DNA of 64,000 nt from NCBI RefSeq assembly GCF_028369105.1, contig NZ_JAQNDO010000001.1:10696501-10760500 (forward strand), in the 5' to 3' direction. Under the pieces are notes generated by a model. It saw nothing but the letters and a program-made list of their open reading frames with translations. It made no database searches and was not told where the DNA came from. The translations under genes were made by a program, and so were the position numbers. This stretch comes from Polyangium mundeleinium. GTDB lineage: Bacteria; Myxococcota_A; Polyangia; Polyangiales; Polyangiaceae. Shown one piece after another: positions 41,435-57,313 of this stretch. How positions within the stretch are numbered: the stretch's first letter is position 1; every line of letters starts with the position of its first letter.

Positions 41435-41461
41435 TTCGCGGATCTCGATCCGTCGTTGGTT

Positions 41462-41500
41462 TGGACGATCGCGAATGGATCCTGGACGACCGAGAATGGA
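41462..41500. promoter_or_regulatory. Two 18-bp direct motifs upstream of the FixJ-type regulator
   Basis: TGGACGATCGCGAATGGA (41462-41479) and TGGACGACCGAGAATGGA (41483-41500), spaced 21 bases start to start, i.e. two helical turns. A third copy (TGGACGATTGCGAATGGA) lies at 44488-44505, upstream of the SDR-ALDH operon. Likely binding sites of a shared regulator, possibly the FixJ-type protein itself. Confidence 0.6.
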
Positions 41501-41625
41501 CGACGTCGCGTCGTCGCGGTACGCTCTCGGGGCATGACGTTCGTCTCGCTACGGGGAGCGCGCCTCGGGGAAGCCGACCTTCCCTGGGATCGCATGCGCA
41601 ACCAGGGCGACCGCGGCGGTGCCAC

Positions 41626-42237
41626 GTGAGTCGAGACGACGCGACGGTCTACGTCGTCGACGACGACGCGAGCGTCCGTGCGGGGCTCTCCACGTTGCTC
41701 CGTTCTCTCGGGTACCGCGTCGCCCTCTTCGAAGACGCGGACCAGTTTCTCAGGGCCAAGTTGGAGGATCATGCATCCTGCCTGTTGCTGGACCTGCAAC
41801 TCCCCGGCATCGATGGGCTCGAGCTTCAGCGTCAGCTCCTGGCGCAGGATCGACCGCTCCCCATCGTCTTCCTCACGGGACGGGGGGACATTCCGACCAC
41901 GGTGCGAGCCATCAAGGCGGGCGCCGACGATTTTCTGACCAAGCCGTTCGTCGCGGACGAGCTCGCGGCCGTGGTCGCGACCGCCATCGAGCGGGACAGG
42001 CACGCACGCGCCCGTCGGCAGGAGCTCTTGGAGTTGCGTGGGCGATACGAAGCGCTCACGCCACGTGAGCGCGAAGTGATGGCGCGTGTCGTCGATGGAC
42101 TGCTCAACAAGCAGATCGCGGCGGAGTTCGGCACCGCGGAGTTCACGGTCAAGGAGCAGCGCGGTCACGTGATGCGCAAGATGAAGGCGGGGTCCGTGGC
42201 CGAGCTCGTGCGCATGTCCGCCCGGCTGGGACGCTGA
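41626..42237 (+). CDS. FixJ-type response regulator
   Basis: 203 residues from GTG. Receiver domain: [40 protein letters not shown] (phosphorylated Asp near 56), [28 protein letters not shown]-terminal LuxR-type [43 protein letters not shown]. The receiver with IPTT and LuxR HTH is the FixJ/NodW/TodT pattern. It probably pairs with the PAS kinase 500 bases downstream. The frame stays open upstream, but the receiver starts here. Confidence 0.9.
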
Positions 42238-42243
42238 ATGCCG

Positions 42244-42624
42244 CTAGGGCGTGGCGCGCGCGACCGCCTCGGCGATCGTGTCGAAGAGCACGGCCGCCAC
42301 GGGCGGCTTCAGCAGGAAGGCGTGCGCCCCGGCGTCGAGGGCGCGGGTCCGCAGCTCTTCGTTCTGCCGCGCCGTGAGCACGACCGTCGGAATCGTGAGT
42401 GGCTTTCCGAGCTGCGCCAAGAGCGCGAGCCCGCCCATTCCGTCCATTTCCAGGTCGAGAATCAGGCATCGAGCCTCGTCTCGCTCCGCACTCGCGAGGA
42501 AGGCTTCGGCGCTCCCGAACGTCGCGACGCGGAAGCCGACAGACCTCAACAGGCTGCTGAGAGACTTCAGGATTCCAGGATCGTCGTCGACGACGGCAAT
42601 CAGTTCGCGGGCAGACACGCGCAC
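42244..42624 (-). CDS. Single-domain response regulator
   Basis: 126 residues, GTG start with GAGGA. Receiver only: IAVVDDDPGILKSLSSLLRS, LILDLEMDGMGGLALLAQLG (Asp near 57), PTVVLTARQNEELRTRALDA, AFLLKPPV. The acid pocket, phospho-acceptor and Lys are present; no output domain. It could act as a phosphate sink or shuttle for the neighbouring kinase. It stands convergent to the FixJ-type gene and divergent from the kinase. Confidence 0.88.
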   Translation of the reverse strand: MRVSARELIAVVDDDPGILKSLSSLLRSVGFRVATFGSAEAFLASAERDEARCLILDLEMDGMGGLALLAQLGKPLTIPTVVLTARQNEELRTRALDAGAHAFLLKPPVAAVLFDTIAEAVARATP

Positions 42625-42754
42625 GTATTCCTCACGTTCGAGCGTGCTAACGTCGGCACGGGCTGTGCGTGCGAGGCCACCACCTGGTGCAGGCTACGCG
42701 ATCCGTCGCTGCAGCTCCACCCCACCAAGGTAGGGTTGGTAAGGGGAGGCGACC

Positions 42755-44308
42755 ATGATTCTCGAGCGCATCGCGCTTAGTTCGTTCGCGGAGTTTCGGA
42801 CGCCACCCGAAGCGGAAGTCGCTCGCCTGGCCGAGGAACTGCTCGAGCGCGCTCTGGACCAAGCGAACGCATTCGGTGGGGCCGTGTACCTCGCAGCGCC
42901 CGAGCCACCCGCGATGGCGAAGGAACGCGTCGACGGAGAGCTCCCGCGTGAGCTCCTCGAGCTCGTGTGGAACGGGAGCGAGGCCCTGCGGCTCGCGACG
43001 GCAGGCGAGGTCGGTGAGCAGCTCCTGATTCCGCTGCGCCACCAACTCGGGCCGATCGGGGTGTTGCAGGTCGTCTTCGAGCACGGCCGTTCTGTGGGAA
43101 ACGAAACGCTGGCCGCACTCTTGCCGCTCATCGAGCGATTTGCTGCCGCTCATGAGAGAGCACGCCTCGGCGCCATGCTCGAGCGTGAGCGACGCGCACG
43201 GCTCGATGCCGAGACCGTGCTCCGCGAGACCACGAGCATGCTCGTGAAGCATCAGCAGGTCGGGAGGATGGGAGACTTCCGGTACAACACCCGCACGCGG
43301 CAGTCGTTCGCTTCGCTCGAGTGCTACAAGCTCTTCGGTCTGGATCCGACGCTCGCGGTGGTCGATTTCGAGGTGTGGGCCGAGAAGATCATCCCCGAAG
43401 ACCGACAACGCACGGTGGACGAACTCACCACGAGCGTCGCCAACCTGCTGCCCATGAACTTCGAGTATCGGGTCGTTCTCGATGGGCAGATTCGCCGGCT
43501 CCAGTGCATGGGTGACGTGGACCGCGATCACCACGGCGACCTCTACTACTACGGCGTGCTCACCGACGTGACGGAACGGCGGGAGACCGAGGCGGCCCTC
43601 CGCCGGCAGCAGTCCGAGCTCGAAAACGCGCTTCGTCTCGCGTCGCTCGGGGAGCTCGCGGGTTCCATCATTCACGAAATCAATCAGCCGCTCACCGCGA
43701 TCGCGGCGAGCGCCGAGGCCAGCCTGCGCTGGCTCGCCCACTCGCCTCCGGAGCTCGACGAGGCGAGGGAGGCCGCGGAAGGCGCAGTCCGGGACGTCCA
43801 CCGTGTCGTGGCCGTGATGAACGGTCTGAGGTCGCTCGTGAGGGGCAGCGACCTTCAACGGAGCCGCGTTCGAATCAACGACCTGTTGCGCGACGTGCTG
43901 GCCATGACGCGCGTGGAGCTCGACCGGGCGCGCATTCGAACGCAGGGGGAGCTGGAGGACGTCCCGGAGGTCGACGGTGACGTCACGCAGCTGCAGCAGG
44001 CCATCTTCAATCTCATCCGAAACGCCATCGACGTGCTCAAACTCGTGGTGGGTCGCGAGCGACTCCTCACGCTTCGCAGCGCGGTCGACGGCGACGGCGT
44101 GCGGGTTTCGATCGTGGACGTCGGAGATCCGATCTCCCCCGCGCAGCAAGCGAAGCTGTTCGAGCCGTTGTTCACGACGAAGGTGGATGGGCTCGGCTTC
44201 GGTCTGACGATCACGCGCAAGATCGTGTTGGCCCACGGAGGCCGCATCTGGGCGGAGCCCATGCAGCCGTTCGGCATGGCCGTGCATCTGGTCCTGCCTC
44301 GCCTTTAA
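42755..44308 (+). CDS. PAS-domain sensor histidine kinase
   Basis: 517 residues, no membrane segment, so a soluble sensor. N-terminal GAF-like region (about 1-140), PAS (about 170-285: MGDFRYNTRTRQSFASLECY through YYYGVLTDVTERRE), HisKA with LASLGELAGSIIHEINQPLT (His near 307), and HATPase: AIFNLIRNAIDVLKLVVG (N box), IVDVGDPISPAQQAKLFEPL (G1), FTTKVDGLGFGLTITRKIVL (G2). The G1 box reads DVGDP where the family usually has DxGxG. ATG follows GGGGAGG. Probable partner of the FixJ-type regulator. Confidence 0.9.
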   Translation: MILERIALSSFAEFRTPPEAEVARLAEELLERALDQANAFGGAVYLAAPEPPAMAKERVDGELPRELLELVWNGSEALRLATAGEVGEQLLIPLRHQLGPIGVLQVVFEHGRSVGNETLAALLPLIERFAAAHERARLGAMLERERRARLDAETVLRETTSMLVKHQQVGRMGDFRYNTRTRQSFASLECYKLFGLDPTLAVVDFEVWAEKIIPEDRQRTVDELTTSVANLLPMNFEYRVVLDGQIRRLQCMGDVDRDHHGDLYYYGVLTDVTERRETEAALRRQQSELENALRLASLGELAGSIIHEINQPLTAIAASAEASLRWLAHSPPELDEAREAAEGAVRDVHRVVAVMNGLRSLVRGSDLQRSRVRINDLLRDVLAMTRVELDRARIRTQGELEDVPEVDGDVTQLQQAIFNLIRNAIDVLKLVVGRERLLTLRSAVDGDGVRVSIVDVGDPISPAQQAKLFEPLFTTKVDGLGFGLTITRKIVLAHGGRIWAEPMQPFGMAVHLVLPRL

Positions 44309-44335
44309 ACTCCTCTCGCGCGGAGGCGCGCACGA

Positions 44336-44383
44336 CGAGACGCGCCATACCCTACCAAGAGAGGGTGGAAGAGGCGCGTCTCG
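44336..44383 (+). terminator. Hairpin after the histidine kinase gene
   Basis: CGAGACGCGCC (44336-44346) pairs perfectly with GGCGCGTCTCG (44373-44383); inside, ACCCT (44349-44353) pairs with AGGGT (44362-44366). It starts 28 bases after the kinase stop. No T-run, which is common in very GC-rich genomes. Confidence 0.5.
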
Positions 44384-44487
44384 GCCGATAGGTTAAGCGC
44401 ACCAATCAGCGTCGTTCCCGACGAGCTTGCACGCAAGAGCCGTGGGTGCACCCGCGCACCCGCGACGGCGAATCTCGCTCGACACTC

Positions 44488-44505
44488 TGGACGATTGCGA
44501 ATGGA
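44488..44505. promoter_or_regulatory. Third copy of the 18-bp motif, upstream of the SDR-ALDH operon
   Basis: TGGACGATTGCGAATGGA, one base different from the copy at 41462. Located 117 bases before the SDR start. Confidence 0.6.
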
Positions 44506-44621
44506 TGACAGTTCTCGCGAACCGCTGCGAGCACCACGACGGAGCCGCAGCGTGACGCATGACGTGACGCGACCCGCATGGGTCGTCCACTTCCAAACCA
44601 CGTCGGAAACGGAGCATGAGC

Positions 44622-45356
44622 ATGAAGACGGTATTGATCACGGGTTGCTCGTCTGGGTACGGGCTCGAGACGGCGCGCTGCTTTCACGAGCGCGGGTGGC
44701 GGGTCATCGCGACGATGCGAACCCCCCGCGAAGATCTCTTTCCGCGTTCGGAGCGTATGCGCGTCCTCGCGCTGGACGTGACGAGCGCGGCGAGCATCGC
44801 GAACGCAATCGACGCGAGTGGACCCCTCGACGCGCTCGTCAACAACGCCGGCATCGGCGTCGTCGGCGCGTTCGAGGCGACGCCGATGTCGCACGTCCGC
44901 AAGATCTTCGAGACGAACACGTTCGGCGTGATGGCAATGACGCAGGCCGTTATCCCGCAATTCCGCGCGCGCAAGTCGGGTGTGGTCGTGAACGTGACCT
45001 CCAGCGTGACGCTCACCCCGATGCCGCTCACGTCGGCCTACACCGCCAGCAAGATGGCCATCGAAGGTTTCACGGGGTCGCTCGCGCTGGAGCTTCAAGC
45101 ATTCAACGTGCGCGCCAAGCTCGTTGAACCCGGATACGGCCCGTCCACGAATTTCGCTCAGAACACGGACATCCCGGTCGCGGACCTGATTCCCGCGGCC
45201 TACGCCGCGTTCGCCGAACCCATCTTCGCAGGCTTCGCGAATCCGCCCGCGGTGACCACTCCATCGGACGTGGCCGACGCGGTGTGGAGAGCCGCGAACG
45301 ACGTTTCCAGTCAACTCCGCTTTCCGGCGGGCGCGGACGCTTTGGCGCTCGTCTAG
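44622..45356 (+). CDS. Short-chain dehydrogenase/reductase
   Basis: 244 residues. ATG at 44622 is preferred because GGAG lies 7 bases upstream. Cofactor motif TGCSSGYG (8-15), NNAGIG, catalytic YTASK and the upstream Ser in VTSSVTLTPMPL. Classical NAD(P)-dependent SDR. It is followed after 45 bases by an aldehyde dehydrogenase, so the pair could oxidise an alcohol to an acid in two steps. A close paralogue lies at 56576-57313, with long identical runs such as ATPM and FETNTFGVMAMTQAV. Confidence 0.9.
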   Translation: MKTVLITGCSSGYGLETARCFHERGWRVIATMRTPREDLFPRSERMRVLALDVTSAASIANAIDASGPLDALVNNAGIGVVGAFEATPMSHVRKIFETNTFGVMAMTQAVIPQFRARKSGVVVNVTSSVTLTPMPLTSAYTASKMAIEGFTGSLALELQAFNVRAKLVEPGYGPSTNFAQNTDIPVADLIPAAYAAFAEPIFAGFANPPAVTTPSDVADAVWRAANDVSSQLRFPAGADALALV

Positions 45357-45401
45357 CGATCGCAATCGAAAGAGACAACTCGACAAAGTGAGATACGAAC
45401 C

Positions 45402-46907
45402 ATGGAAAACCTGAATGCGGAACGTCGGCTCTTCATCAATGGCGCGTTGGTCGACGCGGAGGGGGGGCGAACCTACGACGTCGTCAATCCCGCGACCGAA
45501 GAGATCGCGGGGGTCGTGGCCGCGGCTTCCTTGGCCGATGCCGATCGCGCGCTCGCCGCCGCTCGTCGCTGCTTTGACGCGTCGGATTGGTCGACCAACA
45601 AGGCGCGGCGCATCCGAGCGCTGATCCAGCTTCGTGATGGCCTCAAGGCCGCGTCCGACGAGTGGCGGCGTCAGATCGTCGCCGAGAGCGGATGCCCGAT
45701 CGCCTTCACGCACGGACCGATGCTCGACAGCTCGGTCGCGGACATCGACTACTCGCTCCGGCTCCTGGCCACCTATCCGTTCGAGCGCGAGCTCGAGGAC
45801 CTGGGCTCGCCCATGGGAGGCGCCGCGCGTCGCCTGGTGTGCAAGGAGGCCGCTGGCGTGGTGGTGGCCATCACCCCTTGGAATGCGCCGGTGCAAACGA
45901 ACCTGCAGAAGACCATTCCCGCGCTGGCGGCCGGCTGCACGGTCGTGCTCAAGGCCGCTCACGACACGCCGTGGGCGGCGACGATGCTGGGGCGCGTCGC
46001 CGCGCAGTGCCCGGACCTGCCGCCGGGGGCGTTCAACGTGCTGACGTCGTCGGCCGACGGATCGCTCGGCGCCATGCTCACCGCCGACCCTCGTGTGGAC
46101 GTCGTCTCGTTCACGGGGTCGACGGCCACGGGACGTCGCGTCATGGAGAGCGCCGCGAAAACCATCAAGAGGACGCTGCTCGAGCTCGGCGGTAAGTCCG
46201 CGATGATCATCCTCGACGATGCGGATTTCTCTCAAGCTCTGATCGGCGCCAGCTTCGTGTGCGCGAACGCCGGCCAGGGCTGCGTGCTGAATACGCGGCT
46301 TCTCGTTCCGCGCTCGCGTTACGACGAGGCCATCGCCATTCTGGAGTCGATCTATCGCAACGTGCCCTACGGCGACCCGACCGACATGAAAAACATCATG
46401 GGGCCGATGATCAACGCCGCACAGCGTGAGCGAGTCCTCGCCTACATCGAGAAGGGAAAGGCCGAGGGGGCGCGGCTCGTGGTGGGCGGGGGCAAACCTC
46501 AGCGCTTCGCGAAAGGCTACTACGTCGAGCCCACTCTCTTCGCCGACGTCGAGAACACGATGACGATCGCGCAAGAAGAGATCTTCGGTCCCGTCCTCGT
46601 CGTCATCCCCTTCGAAGATGATGAAGACGCAATCCGTATCGCGAACGACTCGATCTACGGCCTTTCCGGGTCGGTGATCTCGGCGTCTCCCGAACGAGCC
46701 ATGAAGGTGGCCCGCCGTATCCGCACGGGTTCCATGAACGTGAACGGGGCGTTCTTCTTCTCTCCCAACGCTCCCTTCGGCGGCTACAAGCAATCGGGCA
46801 TCGGCCGCGAGATGGGGCTCGAAGGCTTCGAAGAGTATCTGGAGACGAAGACGATCGCGGTTCCGGTCGAGTTTCCGACGGCCACGATCGCCCACGCCTC
46901 GCCGTAA
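45402..46907 (+). CDS. NAD(P)-dependent aldehyde dehydrogenase
   Basis: 501 residues, usual length. AITPWNAPVQTNLQKTIPAL (catalytic Asn), FTGSTATGR (cofactor), LLELGGKSAMIILDDAD (Glu) and FVCANAGQGCVLNTRLLVPR with nucleophile Cys in GQGC, plus C-terminal EEIFGPVLVVIPF and PFGGYKQSGIGREMG. Cytoplasmic. Probably works with the SDR ahead of it under control of the 18-bp motif. Substrate unknown. Confidence 0.92.
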   Translation: MENLNAERRLFINGALVDAEGGRTYDVVNPATEEIAGVVAAASLADADRALAAARRCFDASDWSTNKARRIRALIQLRDGLKAASDEWRRQIVAESGCPIAFTHGPMLDSSVADIDYSLRLLATYPFERELEDLGSPMGGAARRLVCKEAAGVVVAITPWNAPVQTNLQKTIPALAAGCTVVLKAAHDTPWAATMLGRVAAQCPDLPPGAFNVLTSSADGSLGAMLTADPRVDVVSFTGSTATGRRVMESAAKTIKRTLLELGGKSAMIILDDADFSQALIGASFVCANAGQGCVLNTRLLVPRSRYDEAIAILESIYRNVPYGDPTDMKNIMGPMINAAQRERVLAYIEKGKAEGARLVVGGGKPQRFAKGYYVEPTLFADVENTMTIAQEEIFGPVLVVIPFEDDEDAIRIANDSIYGLSGSVISASPERAMKVARRIRTGSMNVNGAFFFSPNAPFGGYKQSGIGREMGLEGFEEYLETKTIAVPVEFPTATIAHASP

Positions 46908-47135
46908 CGGCTGCCGATCGGACGCCGCTGCCCGACACCGCCGCGCGGGATGCGGTCGCCGGCCCGCCGGCCGAGAGGTTCGGCGAAGCTGCACGTTGCC
47001 GGGGCGTCGCGTCACCGTCGTGGAGCGCTCGTCGGACACGACCCCCCAAAAACGTAGGCCTCCATCCCGATGCCGGTTGACGCTCACCCGGTCGGTCGCC
47101 GACGATGATGGCGGTTTGTTTCCGAGGAGGACCTC

Positions 47136-48983
47136 ATGATCGAGCGCCAGGAGATCACCCAGTTCGCCATCTATCCGTCGATCGGCGTGGCGCGCGTTGG
47201 TAACAGCGCCGACGCGTATTTCTTCGGCCCCGAGCAGCCCGGCGTGCCGCGCGCGGACGCCTACCGCGACGCGAGCGGCTGCATCAAGCGCCAAGCCGCG
47301 CGCTTCCGCGTCTATGGCCTCGATGCGAACGGCAACGTCGTCAAGGAGATCACCGCCGACGACGCGCGCATCACCTGGAAGGTCGAGGTCGCGAACAAAA
47401 AGGCGGCGTGGTTCAACTTCGATCAGGCGCTCGACATCCTCGAGTCGCAAGGCCTTGCGAGCACGCTGCGCAACCCGACCGTGAAGGGCCCCGAGCGCGC
47501 GAGCCTCGCCATCACGCCGCCCCCCGTCACCATCTCAGGCAAGGATGTGAATTCGAGCGGCGACGACGCCTCCCTCACGTTTCATGGCCGCTTCTTCGGT
47601 AAATCGGTATACCTCGGCGAGCTGCGCACCGACGCCGCAGGGCGCCTGGTCTTCCTCGGCGGGCGCGGTGAGGCGGCGAGCGTCGACAACAAGCCCGCGA
47701 CCACCTTTGCCAACAACACCGGCTGGCACGACGACACCTCCGACGGGCCGGTCGACGCGTCGATCGAATACAACGGCAAGACCTATACGGCGAAAGGCGC
47801 CTGGGTGGTCGTCGGGCCGCCGGACTACGCTCCGGGCCTGCAGGGCATCGTCACCGGCTGGGACCTGCTCTTCCAGGTCGCAACCGAGATGGAGCCGGCG
47901 CGCATGCCCCAGCGCCCGAAGTTCTCCGAGCACATCTACCCCTTGCTTCGCCGGTTCTCGCTGACCCAGTGGGTGAACGCAGGCTTCGCGCGCGATTTCG
48001 GCTTCGGCACGCCGAGCGATTTCACCGATCCCGTGCTCGTCGCGCGCCTGAACGACCCCTCGGACACGTCGCGCTCGCTCCGCACGCGCATCTTCGACTG
48101 GTTCAGGAATGCGAGTTATGACCACCCCGAGCCGGCCGCGCTCCCCGGCTATTACGGGGATGCGATGACGGGCAACGCCACGAAGCCGGCGAGCCCGCGC
48201 GAGTGGATGGCCATCCTACCGACGCAATACAGGTGGCTCGAGCAATGGGCCGAGGGCCATTTCGAGGCCGACGGGCCGCCCGCGGTCCCGCCGGCCTGGG
48301 AGAGCCTTAGCGCGGCCGAACAAGTCCGGGGCATCGACCGTGCCGTGCTGGACGAGGTGCTCGGCGGGCCCTTCCACCCCGGCGCGGAGTTCACCTGGCC
48401 GATGCGCAACAAGATCCTTTACGTGGAGCCGTTCCGCATCAAACGGCGCGCCAATCCAGAGCCCGACTGGGGCCCGCAGCTCATCTCCTCGATCGCGCTA
48501 GGGAAAGACGGGCCGCTCGACGGCTCGACGGCGGGCGACATCACCCGCTGGATGGCAACACCGTGGCAGACCGACACCTCCTCGTGCCTTTCGGCCTACG
48601 TGCCCTACGTCGACGATTACCTGCCGACGTTCTGGCCCGCGCGCGTGCCGAACGACGTGCTCAGCGAGAAGCAGTACGAGCAGCTCATCGATCCAGACAC
48701 CTCCCCCCGCGAGAAGGAGCGGGTCTTCGCCTTCGAGCAGCGTGTGAAGTGGCTGCGCGGGATCCGCTACCCCATGCGGCCGACGTTCCCACCGCAGATC
48801 TATCCCTCGAAGGACGCGATCAACAAGTTCATCCGCGAATGGGCGCTCGTTGGCATCGTCGAGCCAAAACCCGGACCAGGCGGCCTCCTGCCCCGCGAGG
48901 TCTGGGTGGAGACGGGCCGGCAGATCGAGCACGACCAGCCGACCGCAACGGCGCTTGCGCCGATCTGGTCGTCCGAGGACTAG
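47136..48983 (+). CDS. lodA: LodA/GoxA-like quinoprotein amino-acid oxidase
   Basis: 615 residues; ATG follows GAGGAGG. The N-terminus IYPSIGVARVGNSADAYFFG is the LodA-family opener. Further family blocks: AAWFNFDQALD, VVVGPPDYAPG, FTWPMRNKILYVEPFRIKR and PWQTDTSSCLSAYVPYVDDY then TFWPARVPNDVL. Members make a cysteine tryptophylquinone cofactor from one Cys and one Trp and oxidise lysine or glycine, releasing H2O2. Cys484 is the probable Cys; Trp500 or Trp539 the probable Trp (known LodA uses Cys516 and Trp581, a wider spacing). No signal peptide. The next gene is its maturation partner. Substrate unknown. Confidence 0.88.
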   Translation: MIERQEITQFAIYPSIGVARVGNSADAYFFGPEQPGVPRADAYRDASGCIKRQAARFRVYGLDANGNVVKEITADDARITWKVEVANKKAAWFNFDQALDILESQGLASTLRNPTVKGPERASLAITPPPVTISGKDVNSSGDDASLTFHGRFFGKSVYLGELRTDAAGRLVFLGGRGEAASVDNKPATTFANNTGWHDDTSDGPVDASIEYNGKTYTAKGAWVVVGPPDYAPGLQGIVTGWDLLFQVATEMEPARMPQRPKFSEHIYPLLRRFSLTQWVNAGFARDFGFGTPSDFTDPVLVARLNDPSDTSRSLRTRIFDWFRNASYDHPEPAALPGYYGDAMTGNATKPASPREWMAILPTQYRWLEQWAEGHFEADGPPAVPPAWESLSAAEQVRGIDRAVLDEVLGGPFHPGAEFTWPMRNKILYVEPFRIKRRANPEPDWGPQLISSIALGKDGPLDGSTAGDITRWMATPWQTDTSSCLSAYVPYVDDYLPTFWPARVPNDVLSEKQYEQLIDPDTSPREKERVFAFEQRVKWLRGIRYPMRPTFPPQIYPSKDAINKFIREWALVGIVEPKPGPGGLLPREVWVETGRQIEHDQPTATALAPIWSSED

Positions 48984-48996
48984 CAAGGCCGGGCGC

Positions 48997-50079
48997 TTGA
49001 TCGAGGCGGATGTCGTCGTCATTGGCGCGGGGCCGGCGGGGAGTGCGTCGGCCATCGCGCTCGCCGGCGCGGGCCTGCGCGTGGCAGTCTTCGGACGCGC
49101 GCAGGCCCGCGAGCGCATCGGCGAGAGCCTCTCGCCCGGGGCGCCGTCCCTGCTTGCGCAGCTTGGGGTTTGGGAGCGCTTCCGTGCGGACGGGCACCTG
49201 CCCTGCCACGCGAATGCCTCCGCGTGGGGGAGCGCCGCGCTTGCATGGCACGACTTCCTTCGCGATCCACGCGGGCACGGCTTCCATATCGACCGCGCGC
49301 GCTTCGAGGCCATGCTGCGGGAGCGGGCCATCGAGGTGGGCGCACGCCTCTTCGAGGAGGACGCGCCGCGGGGATGGCAATTGGAGGGCGGTGTATGGCG
49401 CGCGGCGGCGAATGCCGATAGCCGGGTAGTCGCCGCGCGTTACGTGGTCGACGCGTCGGGACGGGCAGCGTCCTTCGCTCGCAGCCAGGGCGCGACGCGC
49501 CTGGTCGCGTGGGAGCAGGTGGCGCTCGTCGCCTTCGCGCGCGCGGCTCGGCCCATCGAGGAGACGTTTACGCTGATCGAGGCTGTGCGCGAGGGGTTCT
49601 GGTACTCGGCGCCCATCCCCGGGGGGCGCTTCGCCCTCGCGCTCTTCACCGATGCCGCGCTGCACCACGCGCCGAGCGCGCGCACGCCCGAAGGCCTCGG
49701 CGCGCTGCTCGATGCTTCGACCCATACCCGGCACCGCCTCGAGGGTCACCGCGCGCGCCTCGAAGGTGCCCCGCGCTTCGTCGACGCCGGGAGCGCCCGC
49801 CTCGCGCATCCGCAAGGCCCCGGTTGGGTGGCCGTCGGCGACGCCGCGCTCTGCTACGATCCCATCTCCGCGCACGGGCTGACGCTCGCGCTGCGCACAG
49901 GCGTGGACGCCGCTGCCGCGCTCGTCGCTGACTGGCGCGGCGACGCTTCCGCCCTGCCCGCCTACGCCACGCGCCTCACGCGCGCCTTCGATGACTACCG
50001 CCGCGAGGCCCTGCACATCTACCGTAGCGAGCAGCGCTGGCTCGACGCGCCCTACTGGCACGCGCGCCACGCACGCTGA
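48997..50079 (+). CDS. lodB: LodB-like FAD-dependent maturation oxidoreductase
   Basis: 360 residues starting at TTG, 13 bases after the lodA stop; no ATG or GTG start fits the N-terminal fold. Rossmann motif VVVIGAGPAGSASAIALAGA, then GESLSPGAPSLLAQLG, VVDASGRAASFARSQGATR and GWVAVGDAALCYDPISAHGL, as in FAD-dependent halogenase/LodB-type proteins. LodB is required to build the quinone cofactor in LodA, so this pair forms a two-gene operon. The TTG start may lower its translation relative to LodA. Confidence 0.85.
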   Translation: MIEADVVVIGAGPAGSASAIALAGAGLRVAVFGRAQARERIGESLSPGAPSLLAQLGVWERFRADGHLPCHANASAWGSAALAWHDFLRDPRGHGFHIDRARFEAMLRERAIEVGARLFEEDAPRGWQLEGGVWRAAANADSRVVAARYVVDASGRAASFARSQGATRLVAWEQVALVAFARAARPIEETFTLIEAVREGFWYSAPIPGGRFALALFTDAALHHAPSARTPEGLGALLDASTHTRHRLEGHRARLEGAPRFVDAGSARLAHPQGPGWVAVGDAALCYDPISAHGLTLALRTGVDAAAALVADWRGDASALPAYATRLTRAFDDYRREALHIYRSEQRWLDAPYWHARHAR

Positions 50080-50153
50080 GGCAGGGCGCACCGGGGGGAG
50101 AGGCTTCGAGCCGGGCGCCACCGGCCGGAATCACGCGCAGGGATCCTCGGCGG

Positions 50154-52268
50154 TCACGGAGCCGGCGACCTCGGCCCCGCGGGATCGACGGCGGCCCCGG
50201 CCCGCTGGAGGAGCCGATCGCGCATCTTCCCCACCTCGTTCGCCGCGACCACGTCGCCGCCCTCGCGGAACGCCTCGGCGGCGCGCTCGTAGAAGACCGC
50301 GGCCTCGCGCGGCAAGAAGACGCCGCGGGACGACGTCGCCGCATCCATCAGCTTTCGACCCACCATGCAAGGTTCGCCTGCGCCGCGCCACTGCTCGGCC
50401 ACGAGGGCAGGGTCTGCGCCCAGCGCTTCGAGCGCCACCGCCAGCCGGCGGCGCAGGAGCACCTCGACGGGGCGCGGGAGCGTCGCGAGGACGGTTTCCC
50501 CGATGAGATCGTGGCTGAAGCCCATGCCATGCACGACGTGCGCGGCCGTGAGCTCCGCCCAGCAAGCGGCGGTGGCAGCGGCGCTGGCCTCGAGCGCGGC
50601 CGACGCGCTCGCGAGCGTGAAATTCGAGCCGAGCAGCGCGAGCACGCGGGCCATCTGCAACGCCGGCTCCGACAAGCGCGAGAGCGTGCCTTCGAGGACC
50701 ACGCCGATGCGGCCGGGGGGCATGCGCGCGACTTCGGCGCGCGAGAGCGTGCCCGACGCGATCACGTGCTTCACGGTCTCGAGCACGAAGAGCGGATTGC
50801 CGCCCGCGTAGCTCGCGATCGAGTCGGCCATGTCGGCGATGCCGGGCACGTCGAGGCTCCCGAGGAGCTGCCGCACGCCGGCCGGGGGGAGCGGATCGAG
50901 CTCGATGTGGATCCCCAGGCCAAACGCCACGCCCTCGCGGATGGACGCCATGATCGCCTCGGGCAGCTCGCCCGCGCGATAACAGAGCACGGCGCGAAGC
51001 TTCACCGTCGGGTCCTGGAAGAGCTGCGCCATCACATACTGCCCGGCTTCCGCGGTCGCGGCGTCCACGAACTGGATGTCGTCGACGCCAAACGCGTCGT
51101 AGCCTTCGCGCGCCGCGAGGCGATGCGCTTCGATCTTGGCCTGGAGCATGCGTATCTTGTCCGCCTCGCTCTCCATCGGCCCCGGCGCCTGCCCCAGCGC
51201 CGGCACGAGCCGCGCGAGCTCGGCGCGCGCCCAGGGAGCGAGCTTCGCCGCGTCAATCTTCGCCAGCATTTCGCTGTACACGCGTGCGTGCGTCCCGTAA
51301 GGCACGGCGCGGTCGCCGGGGCGGCCCGAGAAGAAGAACGGCTTCGCCACCGCGTTGAGGAAGTCGTGCATGAGGCGGCTCTTCCCGATGCCCGGCGGGC
51401 CGCCGATGATGATGGCCTGGCCGGCGGCCCAAGCCGCCTCCATCCGCGCCCACACCTCCTCGCGGCCCACGAGCGCCGGAGGCCGGAGCACGGAGAGCGG
51501 GATCACGCGCGCCGACGGCGCGGACCTCGGCCCGCGTTGCTCGACAGAGCGCGCGATCTCGCGGGCGAGCTCGGTCGTGGCGCGTGATGGCTCGATCCCG
51601 AGCTCCCGATCCAGCATCGCGCGCAGGCGCTGGAAGACCGCGAGCGCTTCGCCACGATCTCCCGCGGCATAGAGCAGGCGCATCCGCTGCCGGTGCGCGT
51701 CCTCCGAACGCGGTTCGAGCTCCACGGCGCGCGCGGCGAGCGCGAGCGCGTCGGCGAGACGACCGCTTCGCTCGTGCTCGTCGATCGCGGCGGTGATCGC
51801 CTGACGTCGCGCGGCGTCCACGTTCGCTCGCGCGCTGTGCAGCCACTCGTCGAACAGCGGTGCGTCGTCGAACGCGAGCTGACCGAGCAGCCGGCCCAAA
51901 GGCAGCTCGGTGGCGCGCGCCGCGAGCTCCGTGCGGCGCGCGCCTCGCAGCGCGCTCACGTCCGCGTCCACGGAGGCCGCCAGAGCCAGCGGATCTGCGC
52001 CGCTCACGAGCACGTCGCCGGTCGCCACCTTCAGCCGCCGGAGGAGCTGTCGCAGGTTGGCCCGCGCCGTCGCCTCGGGCGAGTCGGACCAGAACAGTCC
52101 GGCGAGCCTCGACTTCGGCGTCGCCCCCTCGACCGCCAGGTAGGCAAGGAGCCCGAACGCCTTCTTTTCGAACCGCGCCGGGCCGTTGGGACCGACGAGT
52201 CGGACCTCTCCCAGCACGGAGAGATGCCAGTCGATGATCCCTTTTGTGGAGTTGCCCTGCGCGTGCAC
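50154..52268 (-). CDS. SARP/AfsR-type regulator with ATPase domain
   Basis: 704 residues, GTG start. N-terminal winged HTH (about 15-95; HLSVLGEVRLVGPNGPARFE, KAFGLLAYLAVEGATPKSRL), bacterial transcriptional-activator domain (about 100-250; RRQAITAAIDEHERSGRLAD, DRGEALAVFQRLRAMLDREL), then an AAA/NACHT-like ATPase with Walker A GGPPGIGKSR (about 288-297) and Walker B-like AFGVDDIQFVD. The C-terminal part is helical. SARPs activate secondary-metabolite or stress genes. It ends 75 bases from the lodB end, convergent, so it may or may not control it. Confidence 0.88.
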   Translation of the reverse strand: MHAQGNSTKGIIDWHLSVLGEVRLVGPNGPARFEKKAFGLLAYLAVEGATPKSRLAGLFWSDSPEATARANLRQLLRRLKVATGDVLVSGADPLALAASVDADVSALRGARRTELAARATELPLGRLLGQLAFDDAPLFDEWLHSARANVDAARRQAITAAIDEHERSGRLADALALAARAVELEPRSEDAHRQRMRLLYAAGDRGEALAVFQRLRAMLDRELGIEPSRATTELAREIARSVEQRGPRSAPSARVIPLSVLRPPALVGREEVWARMEAAWAAGQAIIIGGPPGIGKSRLMHDFLNAVAKPFFFSGRPGDRAVPYGTHARVYSEMLAKIDAAKLAPWARAELARLVPALGQAPGPMESEADKIRMLQAKIEAHRLAAREGYDAFGVDDIQFVDAATAEAGQYVMAQLFQDPTVKLRAVLCYRAGELPEAIMASIREGVAFGLGIHIELDPLPPAGVRQLLGSLDVPGIADMADSIASYAGGNPLFVLETVKHVIASGTLSRAEVARMPPGRIGVVLEGTLSRLSEPALQMARVLALLGSNFTLASASAALEASAAATAACWAELTAAHVVHGMGFSHDLIGETVLATLPRPVEVLLRRRLAVALEALGADPALVAEQWRGAGEPCMVGRKLMDAATSSRGVFLPREAAVFYERAAEAFREGGDVVAANEVGKMRDRLLQRAGAAVDPAGPRSPAP

Positions 52269-52597
52269 GTGGCGCTGTCACCTCGGAGGCCTCCAGCGCC
52301 ATCGCTCGACGGGAGGCGGGGCGATAAGGATGCGGTCCCACCGCGTCATGCCCCACCTTGGGTCATGCCGCCACCATCGAGCAGCAATCGGCGATACAGG
52401 TCGGTGTCGGGCAACGGCTCGTGGTCCCCCTGCGCGCTTCCGGGAGGGACCGAGCTATCGGCGCGGAAGCGCGACGAAAATCTGCTCACCGCGTCCTGTC
52501 ACGCTCCCGTCACGCCCCCGGTCCCAAGCTCCCGTTCGACTTGGCCCGCCGAGACCTACGACGTCGCGGCGCATGGCCTCTCGGGGAGCTTGCACGT
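52269..52597. other. 329-bp divergent spacer
   Basis: Lies between the SARP start (minus) and the Cys-rich lipoprotein start (plus) and must contain both promoters. No gene and no clear operator was seen. Confidence 0.4.
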
Positions 52598-54241
52598 ATG
52601 AAACCGCACATCGATTCCAAGCGTTCCTTCTCGCTGCTTTCGGCCCTCTTCGGGACGGCTCGCAAATCGGTCGCGCCTTCGGATGGCATCGTGGGCGGGG
52701 ATCCGCTGCACGCAGCGGGACCCCTCGGCTCGCGTTCTCCCGGTCCCCGGAGGGGCTCACACCGGGGCGTGCTCGGCGTCGCGGTGGCCTTGGTCGCGGG
52801 CGCGCTCGTCGCCGGCGCGTGCGGCACTGCGCCCGAAGACGCTTCGCTGGAAGAAAACGTCGACTCGTACAGCGCTGCCGCCACCTGCGAAACGTGCGAA
52901 CCCGGCGACCCTCCCCCCCCGACCTGCACGCCCAAGTGTGCGGGCAAGGTGTGCGGAGCCTCCAACGGCTGCGGCGGCAAGTGTGCCAGCGGCTCCTGCC
53001 CGGCAGGCACGACCTGCGGCGGCGGCGGCGTGTACGCCCAGTGTGGGTGTACGCCCCAGTGCTCGGGCCAGGCGTGCGGGGCGCCCGACGGCTGCGGCGG
53101 TATCTGCACCGGCGGCTCGTGCCCCTATGGGCAGGCGTGCGGCGCGGCGGGTGTACCGGGCCAGTGCGCGACGCTGCCGACGGGGCAGGGCGTCGAGTGC
53201 TTCGTGTTCAACGACGGCTACGCCGACATGGTCGGGCCGTCGCAGGCGATTTACCTCGAGAGCGGCTCGGGCCGGGCGTGCGTGCCCGACGGCACCCCGG
53301 GCGGCACCTGCCGCAAGTGGTTCGGCCGCTGCCAAACCACCGATCCGAGCCACACGCCGGTGCTCTTCAATGTCTTCAATGACGGCGAGACCGACATGGC
53401 GGGCCCGTCGGACGCGGTGTTCTCGCCGGGGGGCAAGCAGGCGTGCGTGCCGGGCGGCGCCGCGGGCATATGCCGGCGCTGGTTCGGCGAGGCGACGCTG
53501 CCCGACGGGCGCTCGGTCGAGTGCAAGCTGTCCGACGACGGCGGCGCGCGGAAGACGAAGTTCACGGAACACGCGATTTACAACCATGGCTACGGGAACG
53601 TGTGCTTCCCCGACGGCAGCACGCACGGCCTGTGTCGCAAGTGGTTCGGTGAGTGCAGGGTGACCGGCTGCGGCGACGGCGCGTGCAACAGCGACGAGAC
53701 GCCGTCGAGCTGCCCGTCCGACTGCAAGTGCGGCGACGGGCTCTGCAATGGCTCCGAGACGTGTGGCAGTTGCTCGCAAGATTGCGGCGGTTGCTGTGGC
53801 AACGGTGTATGCAACCCCAGCGTCGGCGAGTCGTGCAGCACATGCCCGTCCGACTGCGGCAAGTGCTGCGGCAACGGCGTTTGCGACAATGGCGAGACGT
53901 GCGGTTCGTGTCAGCAAGACTGCGGCGCGTGCCCCGTGCCGACCTGCTCGGGGCAGCCGGCCGAGTCGCAGGCGCAGTACTTCACCGTGGGTATCGAAAA
54001 TTACTGGGGCTGCCTGCTCCAGAGCAACGCGTTCTTTGCCAACTCGCTGAGCGAGGCCGTGCAATGCGGGCAGGCGGCCTTCCCCGGCTACAACATCGTC
54101 ACGGGCACGGTCGGGACCTACGTCTACAACACCGGCAACGTCAACGGCTGCGCCGACATCACGTTCGCCGCGCTGTCGTCGTCGAAGGCGGCCTCGTGCG
54201 CGAATGCGAATGGTTACCCGTACGCAGGCCCCTGCCCCTGA
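52598..54241 (+). CDS. Cys-rich repeat lipoprotein
   Basis: 547 residues from ATG after GGGGAG. The hydrophobic signal segment comes late (about 59-79, VALVAGALVAGACG); an internal GTG near 52769 would give a more normal leader, so the start is unsure. Mature parts: CxxC-type modules (CAGKVCGASNGCGGKCASGS, CSGQACGAPDGCGG), then three tandem ~55-residue units each ending RKWFG or RRWFG (about 197-360), then three C-G-[DN]-G-x-C-N units (CGDGACNSDETPSSCPSDC and like), and a closing WGCLLQSNAFFANSLSEAVQ region. An adhesive or cell-wall surface protein is likely. Confidence 0.75.
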   Translation: MKPHIDSKRSFSLLSALFGTARKSVAPSDGIVGGDPLHAAGPLGSRSPGPRRGSHRGVLGVAVALVAGALVAGACGTAPEDASLEENVDSYSAAATCETCEPGDPPPPTCTPKCAGKVCGASNGCGGKCASGSCPAGTTCGGGGVYAQCGCTPQCSGQACGAPDGCGGICTGGSCPYGQACGAAGVPGQCATLPTGQGVECFVFNDGYADMVGPSQAIYLESGSGRACVPDGTPGGTCRKWFGRCQTTDPSHTPVLFNVFNDGETDMAGPSDAVFSPGGKQACVPGGAAGICRRWFGEATLPDGRSVECKLSDDGGARKTKFTEHAIYNHGYGNVCFPDGSTHGLCRKWFGECRVTGCGDGACNSDETPSSCPSDCKCGDGLCNGSETCGSCSQDCGGCCGNGVCNPSVGESCSTCPSDCGKCCGNGVCDNGETCGSCQQDCGACPVPTCSGQPAESQAQYFTVGIENYWGCLLQSNAFFANSLSEAVQCGQAAFPGYNIVTGTVGTYVYNTGNVNGCADITFAALSSSKAASCANANGYPYAGPCP

Positions 54242-56575: not shown

Positions 56576-57313
56576 TCAGGAGACCAGCGCCACCGCGTCA
56601 GGGCCAGCCGGAAAACGGAGGGTTGCCGTCGCGTCGTTCGCGGCACGCCATACCCCCTCGGCCACGTCGGACTCGCGCGTCACGACAGTCGTCTGCCCGA
56701 AAGCCGCGAAAATGCGCTCTGCAAAAGGCGCGTACGCCTCGGGGATCAGCCCTGTCATGCGGGCCCCCCCGTTGCTCGTGAAGCTCGTGTTCGGGCAATA
56801 GCCAGGCTCGACCAGCTTCACCCGTACATTGAATGCTTCGAGTTCGAATGCGAGCGACGCGGTGAACCCCTCGATGGCCATCTTGCTCGCCGTGTACACG
56901 GCCACCAGCGGCATGGGCGCGAGCGTCACGCTCGACGTCACGTTCACGATCACGCCCGACTTGCGCGCGCGGAATTGGGGCAGCACAGCCTGCGTCATCG
57001 CCATCACGCCGAAGGTGTTGGTCTCGAAGATGTCGCGCACCGTGGCCATCGGCGTGGCCTCGAAGGCGCCCAGGAGCCCGATGCCCGCGTTGTTGACGAG
57101 CACGTCGATGGGCCCACTCGCTTCGAGCGCAGCGGCGATACGCTCGGGCTTCGTCACATCGAGCGCGACCACGCGCAGCCGGTCCGATCGGGGGAGAACG
57201 TCCTCGCGCGGCGTTCGCATGGTGGCGACCACGTTCCAGCCCTGCGCGTGGAAATGGCGCGCGGTCTCGAGACCATACCCAGAAGAGCAACCCGTGATGA
57301 GCACCGTTTTCAT
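56576..57313 (-). CDS. Short-chain dehydrogenase/reductase, paralogue of the gene at 44622
   Basis: 245 residues. TGCSSGYG, NNAGIG and catalytic YTASK are all present. Nearly co-linear with the SDR at 44622: shared runs include KTVLITGCSSGYGLETAR and FETNTFGVMAMTQAV, and AFNVR...KLVEPGY. Here the gene stands divergent to an AraC-type regulator instead of in front of an ALDH. That regulator probably controls it. Confidence 0.9.
   Translation of the reverse strand: MKTVLITGCSSGYGLETARHFHAQGWNVVATMRTPREDVLPRSDRLRVVALDVTKPERIAAALEASGPIDVLVNNAGIGLLGAFEATPMATVRDIFETNTFGVMAMTQAVLPQFRARKSGVIVNVTSSVTLAPMPLVAVYTASKMAIEGFTASLAFELEAFNVRVKLVEPGYCPNTSFTSNGGARMTGLIPEAYAPFAERIFAAFGQTTVVTRESDVAEGVWRAANDATATLRFPAGPDAVALVS

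Follow-up and report, generated by a model that had tools for sequence, protein, structure and literature searches.

Gene structure and family membership

What does a compact gene pair in a 64,000-nucleotide stretch of Polyangium mundeleinium DNA (the window, meaning the whole stretch analysed) encode, on what would its product act, and how did it come to lie in this genome? An earlier note had read the locus as two complete genes, for a cysteine tryptophylquinone (CTQ)-dependent amino-acid oxidase and its FAD maturation enzyme, the second with a TTG start. Both open reading frames are present where that note had placed them, and the family models and PDB homology agree with their assignment (Table 1). 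The lodA-like frame opens with ATG at 47136 and its stop codon ends at 48983, while the lodB-like frame, which runs in the same direction, starts at 48997, 13 nt past the lodA stop. Between 48850, the first possible start in the lodB-like frame, and the FAD motif, the only ATG, GTG or TTG codons are the TTGs at 48850, 48955 and 48997. The TTG start is therefore borne out, because among the three codon types only TTG precedes the FAD motif, and homology, together with an AAGG located 8 nt upstream, favours the one at 48997.

Table 1. Features of the lodAB-like locus (positions in the window; residue numbers refer to the LodA-like protein)
Feature	Position	Strand	Basis
Segment missing from the corresponding gene junction of G377, a genome of the same genus	46930..50186	.	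DNA comparison; edges uncertain by ~10 bases
Stretch 5' of lodA, common to both Corallococcus copies (L026, L027)	47077..47135	+	DNA matches start exactly at 47077
Candidate -35, TTGACG	47077-47082	+	Sequence; promoter function inferred
Shine-Dalgarno-like GAGGAGG, 5' of the lodA-like ATG	47124-47130	+	Sequence
lodA/goxA-like gene, CTQ-dependent oxidase precursor, 615 aa	47136..48983	+	ORF; PDB, Pfam and NCBIfam matches; predicted fold
Phe191 (PlGoxA Phe316, LodA Tyr211)	47706..47708	+	HMMER alignments; Phe in 82/102 rows
His414 (PlGoxA His583)	48375..48377	+	HMMER alignment to PlGoxA; His in 89/102 rows
Asp480 (PlGoxA Asp678, LodA Asp512)	48573..48575	+	HMMER alignments; 102/102 rows
Cys484, predicted CTQ cysteine (LodA Cys516, PlGoxA Cys682)	48585..48587	+	HMMER alignments; 102/102 rows
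Trp500, predicted CTQ tryptophan (PlGoxA Trp697; LodA Trp581 by motif)	48633..48635	+	HMMER alignment; 101/102 rows
Trp539, conserved (at PlGoxA Trp755, not at the cofactor Trp)	48750..48752	+	Alignment; Trp in 99/102 rows
lodB/goxB-like gene, FAD-dependent maturation enzyme, 360 aa, TTG start	48997..50079	+	ORF; PDB, Pfam and NCBIfam matches

The LodA-like protein matches both Pfam domains of the family, LodA_N (1.3e-77, 261 bits, cut-off 26.3) and LodA_C (4.1e-37, 127.6 bits, cut-off 25), and its PDB sequence matches are GoxA (2.4e-57) and LodA (5.1e-36). For the partner flavoprotein, the best Pfam matches are Trp_halogenase and FAD_binding_3, and the best two NCBIfam models are GoxB (248.2 bits) and then LodB (208.5), followed by QhpG (169.3); all three cut-offs, of 400, 400 and 240 bits respectively, are missed. 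The locus thus combines LodA_N and LodA_C, the cofactor cysteine and tryptophan, and an adjoining lodB-like flavoprotein gene. As judged from these alignments and models, membership of the LodA/GoxA family is certain, whereas identity with either named enzyme is not: the protein falls below the cut-offs of both NCBIfam equivalog models, GoxA (NF038173; 423 bits, cut-off 750) and LodA (NF038172; 205 bits, cut-off 600).

The predicted cofactor residues

Two candidate partners, Trp500 and Trp539, had been proposed for Cys484. Trp500 aligns with Trp697 of PlGoxA, which we take to be the CTQ tryptophan of that enzyme; the single row without it (L025) has a gap there, its locus being cut. Trp539 is ruled out as the cofactor residue, since it aligns with PlGoxA Trp755. 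For LodA, the cofactor residues Cys516 and Trp581 are named in the available part of PMC4417212, as is Asp678 of GoxA in that of PMC7876137. The LodA motif reads Trp580-Trp581-Pro, and the HMMER stretch over this part is insignificant (-3.7 bits), so that Trp500 is equated with LodA Trp581 through the motif and a general statement in the accessible text of PMC4417212. The predicted cross-link would accordingly join Cys484 and Trp500, a pair fixed to the extent that alignment can do so. The loop between them is badly predicted, with pLDDT below 50 at residues 487-494.

The spacing of this pair had been singled out as closer than in characterised LodA. This is true of LodA itself, in which 65 residues separate the two, but not of GoxA (15) or of the family sample, where the 16 residues of the window protein are the commonest value (56 of 101 rows, range 5-26). 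An unusual Cys-Trp spacing is therefore ruled out as a novelty, while the remainder of the earlier reading, a CTQ-type oxidase with an adjoining, co-directional flavoprotein maturation enzyme, stands.

Predicted fold and catalytic core

The AlphaFold2 model of the LodA-like protein, built on 35 sequences, has a pLDDT of 86.0 and a pTM of 0.90. VIA-align matched it to 11 GoxA entries (Z 33.7-34.3, rmsd 2.6-2.7, 555-564 residues aligned) and to three LodA entries (Z 29.9-30.8), and the next row had a Z of 7.0; rows with Z of 7 or less, mostly antibody domains, were set aside as a common sandwich fold. Foldseek recovered the same two enzymes among the 50 matches listed.

By alignment, the core residues Phe191, His414 and Asp480 are of the GoxA type, with the place of His414 being occupied by Cys448 in LodA. 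A different picture is seen at Tyr766-His767 of PlGoxA, which are presumably function-defining residues: they align with Thr550-Phe551 of the window protein, in a loop that aligns weakly. Both residues were mutated in GoxA according to the titles of PDB entries 6vmf and 6vmv. The loop after Trp539 also differs from that of GoxA: two Corallococcus proteins have it in near-identical form, it varies across the other members of the surrounding 16-row clade, and most of the 35 rows carry a shorter one.

Relatives and distribution

From a bacterial genome scan, the best 80 of 523 confirmed loci were taken. The closest of these 80 are from Corallococcus praedator (82% amino acid identity) and C. exercitus (80%), followed by Pseudorhodoferax at 54%; the other 77, at 42-53%, include Paenibacillus, Thermomicrobiales, Chryseobacterium, Pedobacter and Streptomyces, so that among these loci, as in the tree, the relatives span many phyla. 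A lodB-like frame was found in 74 of the 80, and several of the six misses stop at a contig end. No third gene recurring broadly beside lodAB was recognised among the gene clusters of these loci; by their example coordinates, those shared by more than six loci overlie the lodA and lodB frames, mostly as antisense or shadow frames (40 clusters shown, with one example for each).

The trees drew on a set of 108 loci, the first after removal of three short and four duplicate sequences, the second after removal of another six rows. In the tree of 102 rows, the window protein groups with its two Corallococcus relatives (SH-aLRT 100), and this clade is nested in 13- and 16-row clades of mixed phyla (SH-aLRT 100 and 99). 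Two anchors for the published group III, picked by strain and length from Table 3 of PMC4417212 (available in part), fall in another clade of 62 rows (SH-aLRT 99), beside the 16-row clade. No characterised group III enzyme was found in the literature searched, mostly without subscription papers, and within that literature the clade of the window protein is without a characterised member. The protein is a new member of a known, widespread family.

Closer to the host, all six genomes of the genus examined carry some LodA-like gene, and none of the five others has a match to the window protein above 52%. G221, a genome of the host's class, and Plesiocystis pacifica share a LodA-like protein whose trimmed sequences (L003 and L065) are identical. 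Matches were found in 7 of 108 genomes of the host family (at 1e-60), in 15 of 377 of the phylum (at 1e-10), and in 34 of 72,556 plasmid records, all below 60% identity. The phage collection gave no match to the LodA-like protein, nor did viral contigs when searched with a single-sequence query, which detects close relatives only. A distribution as patchy as this suggests a trait that is useful yet not essential.

A second LodA-like protein is encoded in the same genome at 5.67 Mb (L127:9646-11616, minus strand), with a twin-arginine-type start, SRRNFLAGG. No LodB-like gene lies within ~8 kb of it, and the same is true of its relatives in two other genomes, G367 (C20) and G369. A lone LodB-like gene is located at 11.41 Mb (L136:7428-8771, minus strand), 5.7 Mb from the second LodA-like gene. 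Relatives of these two genes adjoin in G292 and at a separate site in G367, and lie on different contigs in the draft assemblies of G377, G369 and G378. This arrangement suggests a split operon, whose maturase would work in trans.

Probable lateral transfer

At the DNA level, the window matches C. praedator over 47077-50080 (82.2%) and C. exercitus over 47077-50081 (79.0%), and no match to either Corallococcus locus lies outside 47077-50081 in the locus sequences compared. The LodA-like protein of the window is 82.7% identical to that of C. praedator, compared with 84.7% between C. praedator and C. exercitus. We take Corallococcus to belong to the class Myxococcia in GTDB, which differs from the class of the host.

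The two flanking genes of lodAB in the window, for an aldehyde dehydrogenase and a BTAD regulator, lie tail to tail in the same-genus genome G377, and their matches there end 15 bases apart. The restriction of the Corallococcus match to the pair and its upstream stretch, the lack of a same-genus match above 52%, and the joined flanks in G377 point to lateral movement of the gene pair, which has apparently moved horizontally between distant bacteria together with its own putative promoter. At both ends of the window segment, a few bases continue to match the older flanks past the G377 junction, which mildly favours loss in G377 over insertion in the window lineage; the absence from G377 may thus be secondary and not original.

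A block also present at 2.43 Mb of this genome recurs as the left flank of the pair, at 41454-46929, the two copies being 95.6-98.0% identical over three long pieces. It holds a histidine kinase, an SDR and an aldehyde dehydrogenase (by Pfam) along with a response-regulator-like frame, and among the genus genomes looked at, it is found next to the BTAD regulator only here and in G377. Since the block occurs without adjoining lodAB elsewhere in this genome, and also in three others of the genus, its aldehyde dehydrogenase and SDR are ruled out as part of the system. Further along the window, 56581-57313 has ~73-75% DNA identity to the SDR region of this block, in the opposite orientation, and 52358-54241 encodes a Cys-rich predicted protein of 627 aa without a Pfam match, which is mostly conserved in four same-genus genomes and shows internal repeats in the DNA comparison.

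Proposed reaction and biological role

We consider it very likely that the locus is a horizontally moved, two-gene unit of the lodAB/goxAB type, predicted to make a CTQ oxidase of an amino acid. The LodA-like protein would be made as a precursor, in which the LodB-like flavoprotein and the precursor's own chemistry would convert Trp500 to a quinone and link it to Cys484, giving cysteine tryptophylquinone. In the mature enzyme, the primary amine of the amino acid would be bound to the quinone as a Schiff base and the oxidised product released, after which re-oxidation of the enzyme by O2 would yield H2O2 and ammonium. Lysine and glycine are both improbable as its substrate.

By analogy, a role in predation is possible, in which a secreted oxidase would poison prey through H2O2. 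LodA, AlpP and GoxA are antimicrobial, as shown or proposed to act via H2O2 in the available parts of PMC4417212 and PMC3948610, and among the best 80 of 523 loci the closest relatives are in Corallococcus, one of them bearing the name C. praedator. Yet these are just two Corallococcus records among the 80, and the clade also holds Pseudorhodoferax, Chryseobacterium, Pedobacter, Nitrosomonas and Paenibacillus. To our knowledge, these other genera are not known as predators. Nor do the five neighbouring proteins include an export, immunity or catalase protein by Pfam.

No signal peptide was seen in the LodA-like protein by a crude hydropathy and twin-arginine check. This argues neither way on export, because LodA also starts directly at the conserved domain (its 726-aa PDB chain aligns from residue 4) and yet is secreted, according to the available part of PMC2855505; M. 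mediterranea GoxA, on the other hand, has a twin-arginine signal (PMC3948610, in part). Roles in biofilms or in nitrogen use are equally open, and no work on LodA-like proteins in myxobacterial predation was found in the literature searched, again mostly without subscription papers. A predation weapon is a possible, though unlikely, role for the pair. Less probable still is the broader proposal of a CTQ clade with a GoxA-type core and a different substrate loop that acts on an amino acid or amine not known as a substrate of any CTQ enzyme, has spread between phyla as a self-contained gene pair, and serves its hosts in H2O2-based killing.

Candidate substrates

The retention of a GoxA-type core, but with the Tyr766-His767 of GoxA replaced, leaves no basis for assuming either glycine or lysine as the substrate, and a substrate other than these two is plausible from the alignments. 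According to the available part of PMC4417212, the substrate is known for few enzymes of the LodA family.

Were the protein a true glycine oxidase that has diverged in sequence, it would be expected to resemble GoxA, which does provide the closest solved structure and the closest model, and with which it shares Phe191, His414 and Asp480. However, the GoxA model gives 423 of the 750 bits required, the protein is 31-33% identical to GoxA when aligned by structure, Thr550-Phe551 stand in place of Tyr766-His767, and the loop after Trp539 is unlike that of GoxA, so that we regard a GoxA function as improbable. A lysine 6-oxidase is far more improbable, despite the common family and a LodA Z of about 31, as the LodA model reaches 205 of 600 bits, Tyr211 and Cys448 of LodA give way to Phe191 and His414, and the long Cys-Trp stretch of LodA is absent.

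To the earlier reading, the present analysis adds a cofactor pair settled by alignment, an altered substrate loop and a transfer history. Because its genes are compact (615 and 360 aa), its cofactor pair is clear and no accessory gene was seen to recur, the locus would be well suited to testing which substrate an uncharacterised clade uses.

Comparison with known systems

The closest counterpart is PlGoxA/PlGoxB, the glycine oxidase and maturase of Pseudoalteromonas luteoviolacea (PDB 6byw, 6eer), which shares with the window protein its fold, the Phe/His/Asp core and a similar Cys-Trp spacing (15 versus 16), and whose GoxB model is the best match of the partner. The window protein is shorter (615 versus 816 aa), lacks the Tyr766-His767 of PlGoxA, and scores below the GoxA family cut-off.

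LodA/LodB, the L-lysine 6-oxidase system of Marinomonas mediterranea (PDB 3weu, 2ymw), is likewise a two-gene operon with the cofactor cysteine and tryptophan and the aspartate in common, and in both proteins the conserved domain starts within the first residues. LodA differs in its Cys-Trp spacing (65 versus 16), and in having Tyr211 and Cys448 where the window protein has Phe and His.

The group III LodA-like proteins (Campillo-Brocal 2015), such as that of Azospirillum sp. B510 (1004 aa; 41% identity over 93% of the length), have the same cofactor motif and a flavoprotein partner, but the anchors belong to a separate supported clade. Some group III proteins possess an N-terminal catalase-like part (PMC4417212, as far as available), of which Pfam finds none in the window protein.

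Finally, Corallococcus praedator CA031B and C. exercitus AB043A (L026, L027) have the same lodAB order and upstream stretch as the window, differing in that their lodB-like gene has a possible GTG start three codons 5' of the position of the window's TTG.
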